From Gammaproteobacteria bacterium (GTDB lineage Bacteria; Pseudomonadota; Gammaproteobacteria; SZUA-140), in contig JAKISP010000013.1 in NCBI GenBank assembly GCA_021648525.1, positions 1-64,000 on the forward strand: a stretch of DNA of 64,000 nt, read 5' to 3'. Every line of letters starts with the position of its first letter. Positions within the stretch are counted from its first letter, which is position 1. The notes beneath the pieces are model-generated. The model was not told the DNA's origin. It saw nothing but the letters and a program-made list of their open reading frames with translations, and made no database searches. Positions 31,316-33,813 of the stretch are shown one piece after another. The position numbers and the translations under genes were made by a program.

Positions 31316-32590
31316 TTAAATTGTCTGACGAACGCCTGTTGGCTTCCATGCAGGCGCGATCACATTTGGCATACTGGAACGCTTTAATAAACGCATGGGG
31401 GTGAGTGTAAATTCACCGTAACGTTCATTCACCTGATCCATCACCACATTGACCTCTCGGCCATGCAGTTCAACCCGCGGTGAAAAGAGTTCAATTTGAT
31501 GGTTGGCAATAGATGGGTTCAATGCGGTCACCTGAACCTGATGCACCGCCTTTCCATACCAATGGGTATTTAACATGTTACGACAGAGCTTCATGATTTC
31601 ATGGCCATCATCAATCGGGATCTCTGATTGATATTTACCACCAATCCAGCCGTTCTGACCACGCAGACCGATAAAAAAACGCCCCGCCTGCATGCTGTGG
31701 CGACGCAGGCGCGTTGCAACCTTTTCACTCATGTGCAGTAGATAAGTCTCAACCACATCGACATCAGTGGTATTCGGCGGCATCACTTTGCCATGCCCGA
31801 GTGACTTCGGCGGCTGGGTATCGATGCTCACCTTGCTCGGATCTGTCCCCTGGCACATATGCCAGATACGCCGCCCAAGGTTGCCAAAACGACGCGCCAG
31901 TACGCTAATCGGGATCTGTTTCATATCCCCACATGTATGCACGCCGTATTGCGCAAGAAAATCGCCAATTCCTTTTGCGATGCCACATAATTCGGTCACT
32001 GGCACATCTTTCAGTCGCTGTTCCGCTTCCCATGGTGGAATCACGGTGAGGCCATTGGGCTTGACCAGCTTCGCAGCAAATTTGGCAGTGGTCTTATCAC
32101 CACTTAGCCCAATCGAACAGTGAATACCCGAGGCCTCAAACACCTTTTGCCGCACCATGCGTGCAATCTGTAGCGGTGTGCCGTGCAGTTTCTGGCAACG
32201 GGTCACATCGAGAAAGGCTTCATCAATCGAGAAGACTTCAACATCCGGCGTAATGTCATGCAGTGCGCGCATAATGTTCTGCGATACCTGGGCATAACGT
32301 TCAGGGTCTGCCGGGACTTGAATCAAGTCAGGACAAAGACGGCGCGCATCTTTTAACCGCATGCCGGTATGCACCCCATAAGCACGTGCTTCATATGAAC
32401 AGGTGATGATACAGGTACCCTGCTCACCATTGGTAACTGCAATCGATTTACCGCGCCACTGCGGGCGGTCACGTTGTTCTATCGATGCAAAGAAGGCATT
32501 CATATCGACGAGGATGATCGCCTTCGGCCAGTGCACAGGGCTGCGGCCTGGCGGATCTCTTTTAATGTTTGTGTTTGTGCTGGTTTTCAT
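31316..32590 (-). CDS. Y-family (translesion) DNA polymerase
   Basis: A 424-residue Y-family polymerase. The catalytic acidic residues are visible in ILVDMNAFFASIEQ and VFSIDEAFLDVT; YEARAYGVHTGM and SIGLSGDKTTAKFAAKL are finger/palm motifs. A C-terminal QIELF fits a beta-clamp-binding peptide. It resembles Pol IV/DinB and UmuC-like enzymes but does not fall clearly in either. It follows lexA by 43 bp and is surely under SOS control, allowing bypass synthesis after DNA damage. Confidence 0.88.
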   Translation of the reverse strand: MKTSTNTNIKRDPPGRSPVHWPKAIILVDMNAFFASIEQRDRPQWRGKSIAVTNGEQGTCIITCSYEARAYGVHTGMRLKDARRLCPDLIQVPADPERYAQVSQNIMRALHDITPDVEVFSIDEAFLDVTRCQKLHGTPLQIARMVRQKVFEASGIHCSIGLSGDKTTAKFAAKLVKPNGLTVIPPWEAEQRLKDVPVTELCGIAKGIGDFLAQYGVHTCGDMKQIPISVLARRFGNLGRRIWHMCQGTDPSKVSIDTQPPKSLGHGKVMPPNTTDVDVVETYLLHMSEKVATRLRRHSMQAGRFFIGLRGQNGWIGGKYQSEIPIDDGHEIMKLCRNMLNTHWYGKAVHQVQVTALNPSIANHQIELFSPRVELHGREVNVVMDQVNERYGEFTLTPMRLLKRSSMPNVIAPAWKPTGVRQTI

Positions 32591-32633: not shown

Positions 32634-33236
32634 TTACAGGTAGCTACGCATCTGGCCAACCAGCACACCCTGAATACGCACCCGATGTGCAGCATAGGTA
32701 AAAGGCTCCATCGTGCTGTTTTCTGGCTGCAACTTCACACGCCCATCATCGGTGTGTTTTAAACGCTTCAGGGTCGCTTCATTACCATCGATCAGCGCCA
32801 CCACAATTTCACCGCTGTAGGCCTGCTGCGCCTGGCGAATCACCACCATGTCGCCATCAAGAATACCGACATCAATCATCGAATCTCCCACAACTTTAAG
32901 AATGAAACGATCGGGGCCCATAAAAAAATCAACCAGGTTGACTCTGTCGTGCCCCGGGATTGCCTCAATCGGCAAACCCGCCGCAATCTCACCTAACAAC
33001 GGCAAGCTTATCTGCTCTTCTTCAGCATCATCATCGACCAACTGCAAACCACGCCAACCCGCGTGATTGCGCACCAGCTGTCCTTTATCAATCAGCCCCT
33101 GGACGTAGCGATGTAGCGTGCCCTTTGAGGCAACACCGACCGCCTCACCAATCTCCACCAGGGTGGGCGAACGCCCCTGCTCGGTAATGTGAAATCGAAT
33201 CGCATCCACAATGCGTTGCTCAAGTTCGGTCAGCAT
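32634..33236 (-). CDS. lexA: LexA repressor, SOS regulator
   Basis: A 200-residue LexA. The N-terminal winged helix (GRSPTLVEIGEAVGVASKGTLHRYV) binds DNA; the self-cleavage site is A86-G87 (LLGEIAAGLPIEA), and the serine/lysine dyad is S119 (VVGDSMID) and K157 (EATLKRL). RecA-stimulated self-cleavage would release the downstream polymerase gene. The recognition helix differs from the E. coli type, so the operator may differ too (see the promoter entry). Confidence 0.94.
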   Translation of the reverse strand: MLTELEQRIVDAIRFHITEQGRSPTLVEIGEAVGVASKGTLHRYVQGLIDKGQLVRNHAGWRGLQLVDDDAEEEQISLPLLGEIAAGLPIEAIPGHDRVNLVDFFMGPDRFILKVVGDSMIDVGILDGDMVVIRQAQQAYSGEIVVALIDGNEATLKRLKHTDDGRVKLQPENSTMEPFTYAAHRVRIQGVLVGQMRSYL

Positions 33237-33272: not shown

Positions 33273-33301
33273 AGCATAGAGAACTTTTAGAGAACTTTCA
33301 A
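33273..33301 (-). promoter_or_regulatory. lexA promoter with tandem direct repeats, likely LexA operator
   Basis: On the minus strand TTGAAA (33301-33296) and TATGCT (33278-33273) are spaced by 17 bp, a good sigma70 promoter. The spacer and edges consist of two perfect 11-bp direct repeats, TAGAGAACTTT on the plus strand at 33277-33287 and 33288-33298. No E. coli-type CTG-N10-CAG box is present here. The repeats are well placed to be this LexA's own binding site, with one dimer-half spacing of one helix turn. Confidence 0.6.
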
Positions 33302-33597: not shown

Positions 33598-33813
33598 GTG
33601 GCATCCATCAAATATATCAGTTCGAAATGCGGTCAGTGCAGCTACTGGAAGGTTAGCAGAAACCCATTAGGAAGATGCCGACTTGACCCAGAACACCAGA
33701 TAACCATTGGTCGTTACGGTAAGGCCTGCGGAGCCTTTGAAGAGGCCGGGTTTGTCATTCAACGGGTGCCACCAGTAAAAGAATGTCCGCTCATCTATTA
33801 TAAACGCTCATAA
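33598..33813 (+). CDS. Small cysteine-containing protein, unknown
   Basis: A 71-residue protein starting with GTG at 33598 after GGGACAGG. It has five cysteines, including CGQC near the N-terminus (SSKCGQCSYW), GRCRLD, KACGAF and ECPLIY, a spacing that could bind a metal ion. No family is recognised. It is convergent with the PilZ-like gene downstream. Confidence 0.6.
   Translation: MASIKYISSKCGQCSYWKVSRNPLGRCRLDPEHQITIGRYGKACGAFEEAGFVIQRVPPVKECPLIYYKRS

Follow-up and report, generated by a model that had tools for sequence, protein, structure and literature searches.

The lexA promoter and its tandem repeat

We examined the lexA locus of the window (the whole 64-kb stretch of gammaproteobacterial DNA analysed here), in which the following features, all on the minus strand, lie next to or within one another.

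31316..32590, minus strand: Y-family (DinB/Pol IV-like) DNA polymerase, 424 aa (Pfam IMS, 165 bits; NCBIfam Pol IV)
32634..33236, minus strand: lexA, 200 aa (NCBIfam TIGR00498, 159.4 bits vs. a cut-off of 110.95)
33273..33278, minus strand: -10 hexamer TATGCT of the lexA promoter (read directly; 3/6 positions invariant in the genus)
33277..33298, minus strand: perfect 11-bp tandem direct repeat, the putative whole operator (plus strand, TAGAGAACTTT twice)
33279..33284, minus strand: candidate LexA half-site 2, GTTCTC, 11 bp from half-site 1 (read directly; conserved in the genus)
33290..33295, minus strand: candidate LexA half-site 1, GTTCTC (read directly; conserved in the genus)
33296..33301, minus strand: -35 hexamer TTGAAA of the lexA promoter (read directly; invariant in 10/10 genus genomes)

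The encoded LexA retains an intact cleavage site (A86-G87) and catalytic dyad (S119/K157) when aligned with E. coli LexA chains, and its recognition helix, starting at residue 37, reads SKGTLHR. No other LexA was found in the genome (E = 0.001; genome 99.91% complete, 3.36 Mb). The polymerase gene starts 43 bp 3' of lexA, and at E = 1e-10 the genome has no other IMS-family match; each of the 10 genus genomes has a single IMS-family protein, always encoded beside lexA. Near relatives that carry names are metagenome-assembled Gammaproteobacteria, some of them recorded as Chromatiales or Chromatiaceae. A 71-aa cysteine-containing reading frame with no Pfam match (33598-33813, plus strand) lies a few hundred bases 5' of the lexA promoter.

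An earlier note on this DNA had described an 11-bp direct repeat in tandem between the -35 and -10 elements of lexA, of GTTC-N7-GTTC form on the minus strand, in a promoter with no E. coli-type SOS box, and all three observations hold. TAGAGAACTTT at 33277-33287 is followed head to tail by an identical copy at 33288-33298, and positions 33301 down to 33273 give, on the minus strand, TTGAAA-GTTCTC-TAAAA-GTTCTC-TATGCT (29 bp), so that the repeat occupies the whole 17-bp spacer. The two GTTC half-sites are direct with an 11-bp period, the form on the lexA coding strand being GTTCTC-N5-GTTCTC, and this sigma-70-type promoter ends 36 bp 5' of the lexA start codon. CTGT-N8-ACAG is absent from the promoter, and a genome-wide scan for an E. 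coli-type regulon returned 27 sites vs. 35 for the reversed control.

The lexA tandem is the sole perfect 22-bp tandem of 11-mers in the window (among units built from at least three different bases). Its 20-bp repeat form matches once in the window at up to three mismatches, and 100 shuffles gave no match at all; GTTC-N7-GTTC by itself is about as frequent in the window as expected (2 observed vs. 1.6). Across the 10 genus genomes no other block of the promoter is as well conserved as the tandem repeat: in the aligned promoters, 16/18 operator columns and 6/6 columns of the -35 hexamer (one column shared) are invariant, compared with 3/6 in the -10 hexamer and 11/111 in other columns. Exact AGTTCTC-N4-AGTTCTC occurs once per genome in 10/10 genus genomes, always at lexA.

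Direct repeats in one LexA subfamily

Of 370 genomes of the class searched, 246 yielded a LexA at E = 1e-12 or lower. A subfamily, delimited by an E-value cut, comprised 103 matches in 96/370 genomes at E = 1.1e-38 or better. Upstream DNA was taken for 95 of these matches, the other 8 being left out; with 13 further loci and two more (L029 and L043), the set retained at 138 bits or above came to 110 subfamily rows, and removal of nine same-genus copies and of rows at least 75% identical to a kept row left 76 non-redundant rows.

Direct repeats with a period of 11 (at least 7/8 letters) are present in 55/76 of these upstream regions vs. 3.2 expected from dinucleotide shuffles, and no other period from 8 to 25 is found in more than 7 of the 76. 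GTTCTC-N5-GTTCTC (at least 10/12 letters) lies upstream of 62/76 lexA genes vs. about 1.1 in shuffles, which preserve base content only, the half-site and the 10/12 threshold having been set after the first promoters were known. The pair runs forward, in the direction of lexA, in 28 of the 62 promoters, in reverse in 8, and in both orientations in 26. Hexamers resembling -35 and -10 elements (at least 4/6 consensus) directly flank the pair on both sides, as in the window, in 26 of 54 promoters with a forward pair (a raw count, uncorrected for chance). The 14 promoters below 10/12 include some variant repeats (GTTCG, TTTCTC), one inverted pair (L029) and a few with nothing clear.

The pair at 10/12 or better was found in none of 28 promoters of CTGT-type or xanthomonad-type LexAs. 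It was reached in 4/21 alpha-phylum lexA promoters, so the score alone does not separate the subfamily from the alpha rows, whose label was assigned from kinship class and sequence similarity. Counting both strands, exact GTTC-N7-GTTC is present in 14/21 alpha-phylum lexA upstream regions (14/15 in the main alpha clade) and in 0/25 from CTGT-type gammaproteobacterial LexAs. In the latter, CTGT-N8-ACAG occurs exactly in 18/25 and within one mismatch in 25/25. All three xanthomonad-like upstream regions carry TTAGTA..TACTAA, which we take to be the xanthomonad motif and on which that label rests.

This restriction of the repeat to one LexA subfamily among the sets compared, its conservation in the promoter and its recurrence elsewhere at Y-family polymerase and recA promoters are the basis on which we read the tandem 11-mer as very probably the operator of LexA, a gammaproteobacterial case of the GTTC-N7-GTTC form known from Alphaproteobacteria. 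The whole explanation, to which we give a probability of about 0.87, is that the repeat would be an autoregulatory operator controlling a lexA-polymerase operon, with release triggered by RecA. A LexA dimer would place one DNA-binding domain on each GTTCTC; the half-sites, one helical turn apart, should face the same side of the DNA, so that both domains could sit on one face. LexA bound to the -35/-10 spacer would exclude RNA polymerase and repress the promoter. Upon DNA damage, RecA filaments would stimulate LexA to cleave itself at A86-G87 by means of S119/K157, and lexA and the polymerase gene, presumably cotranscribed, would then be induced.

The repeat might instead serve a regulator other than LexA, or have arisen by chance as a tandem duplication within the spacer, and have nothing to do with LexA. 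GTTC-N7-GTTC by itself is no commoner in the window genome than its reversed control (42 sites vs. 46), and LexA binding to the repeat is a prediction, both of which suit such a reading; a repeat unrelated to LexA would not be expected to stand at 62/76 subfamily lexA promoters and 0/28 of the CTGT-type or xanthomonad-type, to recur in other genomes before Y-family polymerase genes and recA, or to persist in the genus where its flanks diverge. We regard this explanation as very improbable.

The opposed pairs raise a different question, namely whether the true operator is an inverted GTTCTC repeat, the direct repeat reflecting overlapping or doubled inverted operators. Both orientations are present in 26/76 promoters, L029 has AGTTCTCTAAATTAGAGAACT and no direct pair, and the arm spacers of the 26 opposed pairs match at 2.73 of 5 positions vs. 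2.01 by chance (SD 0.19; 0/2000 permutations). In 36/76 promoters, the window included, only a single orientation is present (28 forward, 8 reverse), and opposed arms stand anywhere from 4 to 23 bp apart, without a set phase, whereas the 11-bp direct spacing is constant. These figures favor the direct repeat as the operator and make the inverted one quite improbable. In the lexA upstream regions of L274 and L243, the opposed pairs are exact inverted copies, spacers included. We also weighed a hairpin role for opposed pairs and discarded it, since their left arm would lie upstream of the expected transcription start.

Reach of the probable operator in the window genome and beyond

The earlier note had proposed, as a test of its reading, a scan for further GTTC-N7-GTTC copies upstream of DNA-damage genes. 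Its reading of the repeat as a LexA operator is supported, given that the repeat tracks the LexA subfamily across many families and recurs at Y-family polymerase and recA promoters elsewhere, but the wider regulon is not supported in the window genome. On that test only the lexA-polymerase operon is left, and the region upstream of recA lacks the repeat. The genome count of the bare form was set aside as uninformative evidence, being at the level of its control. All 42 sites were placed (two of them identical and on one contig), and besides the one at lexA none pairs GTTCTC half-sites with a clean position before a recognizable repair gene, genes behind intergenic sites being assessed by inspection of their N-terminal residues. 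One site (L220), with GTTCAG half-sites, falls within a reading frame and precedes by 256 bp a gene that by eye looks ruvC-like; we took it as chance. The other near-matches fall within reading frames, as does a further site (C30) in a short frame of 62 aa; a recombinase-like gene on the opposite strand lies 232 bp from that site.

Pattern searches, exact or near-exact (up to two mismatches in 14 letters, or none in GTTC), found the full operator once in the window genome, at lexA, and not at recA or other SOS genes. We infer from these sequence patterns that the regulon there is essentially lexA and the Y-family polymerase. A fuller SOS regulon of degenerate sites could have escaped searches of this kind, in which the promoters of uvr, ruv and recN were covered by the pattern scan and not one by one. 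Summed over the 10 genus genomes, AGTTCTC-N4-AGTTCTC at up to two mismatches gave 63 matches vs. 145 for the reversed control, with one exact copy per genome, and thus nothing to suggest further good sites; the repeat is also missing from the recA upstream regions of 9/10 genus genomes (the tenth recA is a fragment), which share a different block. We therefore consider a fuller regulon unlikely. The shared block (L161-L169) spans about 40 bp round the promoter, reads roughly GCTAGGATGGNGYTGGTATCTATGTGATAATTTG, and contains no LexA-like site.

We scanned 31 genomes (the window genome and 30 others with a subfamily LexA) for exact GTTCTC-N5-GTTCTC and found 36 copies vs. 7 for reversed controls, with at least one in 21/31 genomes and none in 10/31. 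By coordinates, 28 of the 36 are at lexA (within 90 bp of the lexA match). Two are in promoters of stand-alone Y-family polymerase genes (G129 and G242), with TTGAAA directly before the pair, and one is in the recA promoter of G164. Another is at a contig end in G376, ahead of a series of genes whose last member is recA (the intervening genes named by eye). The rest comprise three copies inside reading frames (one in G147, two in G053) and one in an intergenic microrepeat in G243.

Among the 28 copies at lexA are those of G342, in which two opposed pairs (L423, 1522-1568) lie between lexA and a divergent helicase gene whose product has an MrfA Zn-binding domain. This arrangement suggests that the MrfA-like helicase gene may be a further LexA target in this related branch of LexA.

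Of 29 recA upstream regions examined in genomes with a subfamily LexA, 28 were usable, and one (G164) has the exact pair; those of G014 and G061 reach 10/12, a level attainable by chance. A repeated AT-rich element, approximately TAAAAARTATTGACA followed by AAARTAT and located near the -35 element, is present in 7/28 (L362, L364, L375, L376, L378, L379 and L385). It is neither GTTC- nor CTGT-type, and may be the site of another recA regulator.

A Y-family polymerase gene lies downstream of lexA in 38/76 non-redundant loci (within about 1.5 kb); in the other 38, no such gene was found beside lexA within, for most, about 1.5 kb or less on each side. The association is also seen on two plasmids. 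On that of Methylophaga thalassica (NZ_CP143310.1), lexA overlaps a DNA polymerase IV gene and has ATTCTC-N5-ATTCTC upstream. On that of Methylobacter (NZ_CP091426.1), lexA is divergent from umuD and a Y-family polymerase gene, with GTTCTC-N5-GTTCTA between them. A link to phages was considered and rejected: the promoter-plus-repeat pattern had no match in viral contigs, and relatives in phage records and viral contigs are only distant (phage relatives at most 39% identical among the 15 rows listed of 56 records; two viral contigs at 38-42%).

Recognition helix, origin and relation to known systems

The recognition helix is SKGTLHR in the window LexA, SKSGIHR in the consensus of 15 alpha rows, and SPNAAEE in CTGT-type gammaproteobacterial LexAs. 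E. coli LexA contacts DNA through Ser39, Asn41, Ala42, Glu44 and Glu45, according to the relevant part of PMC3091678. The residues aligned to these contacts are S, G, T, H and R in the window; S, S, G, H and R in the 15 alpha rows; and mostly S, N, A, E and E in the CTGT-type rows. The window helix resembles the alphaproteobacterial sequence and not the E. coli one. The GTTCTC pair is missing from 8/9 rows without R or K at window position 43 vs. 6/67 with R or K. We considered residue 43 as dictating the half-site, strong as the association is in the raw table, and set it aside as proof because independent changes are few (two pairs on supported branches; sign test, P = 0.5).

In a tree of 135 rows, the subfamily groups with the main alpha LexA clade (support 92/81, unstarred, bootstrap not settled) and away from CTGT-type gammaproteobacterial LexA. 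A single starred branch (99/94) holds 74/76 subfamily rows, and the other two (L285 and L295) group with two alpha-phylum rows. A tree constrained to unite the subfamily with CTGT-type gammaproteobacterial LexA was 23.9 log units worse and was not rejected (AU test, P = 0.226). An ancient transfer from an alpha-like donor is favored by this phylogeny as the origin of the subfamily, but is unproven.

GTTC-N7-GTTC is the direct-repeat LexA operator of Alphaproteobacteria such as Caulobacter in the accounts available from PMC12700426, PMC8565304 and PMC3323433. The window operator shares with it the direct repeat, the half-site core, the 11-bp spacing and a recognition helix of the form S-K-x-x-x-H-R. 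It differs in its gammaproteobacterial host, in a half-site extended to GTTCTC, in leaving recA uncovered, and in the second, opposed pair frequent in the subfamily. Alphaproteobacterial LexA is also longer (the main alpha clade's 15 rows range over 228-245 aa vs. 200 aa in the window). An alpha-type lexA outside Alphaproteobacteria, acquired laterally, is reported for Acidobacterium capsulatum in a title cited in PMC3323433; that host belongs to another phylum, and for the window LexA an alpha origin is favored, not proven. E. coli LexA aligns with the window LexA over its full length and has the same kind of cleavage site and dyad, but its recognition helix differs and its CTGT-N8-ACAG operator is lacking in the lexA promoter of the window.

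Two systems resemble the window locus in other respects. The LexA of Balneolaeota binds a direct repeat in gel shifts, and its regulon includes translesion polymerases and recA (PMC7739468, in the part available); LexA on a direct repeat and a translesion polymerase as target are common to both, with binding demonstrated there and predicted here, while the repeat sequence and spacing differ, as does the inclusion of recA. In Geobacter sulfurreducens, an autoregulated lexA forms an operon with imuB-C and polY, and the passages available from PMC6511836 (with the title of Jara et al. 2003, which it cites) state that LexA does not bind the recA promoter. This matches the window in an autoregulated lexA with a Y-family polymerase and recA apparently outside LexA control, and departs from it in the extra ImuB-C gene, the presence of two lexA genes and a palindromic motif, given as GGTT-N10-AACC in the text available from PMC8565304.

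Direct-repeat LexA operators are therefore already published for other groups, and the authors of PMC7739468, in the part available, consider that recognition of direct repeats by LexA apparently arose independently several times. We recognized no report of a gammaproteobacterial direct-repeat LexA box among the matches listed from the open-licence literature. Apparently new are the occurrence in a gammaproteobacterial lineage, the lengthening of the half-site to GTTCTC, the presence of opposed pairs and an operator that is nearly solitary in the genus.

More tentatively, and with doubt prevailing, we suggest that a second major gammaproteobacterial LexA lineage (96/370 genomes and two plasmids) might work on GTTCTC direct repeats, often with opposed tandem pairs round the -10 element on which two dimers would clamp the promoter, and that in many hosts it could serve as a portable, self-contained switch for one mutagenic polymerase, with RecA as its sensor and not its target. 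According to the consulted portion of PMC3323433, most beta- and gammaproteobacteria share the E. coli box CTGT-N8-ACAG. If the direct-repeat operator is borne out, a sizeable part of the gammaproteobacteria would use a direct-repeat box, and scans for SOS regulons with the E. coli box would miss them. The natural variants of the subfamily (one pair, opposed pairs, altered half-sites and helices) would also bear on how a symmetric LexA dimer reads a nonsymmetric site. Among them, L029, where the inverted pair lies just 5' of the start of lexA, offers a natural test of direct vs. inverted recognition.
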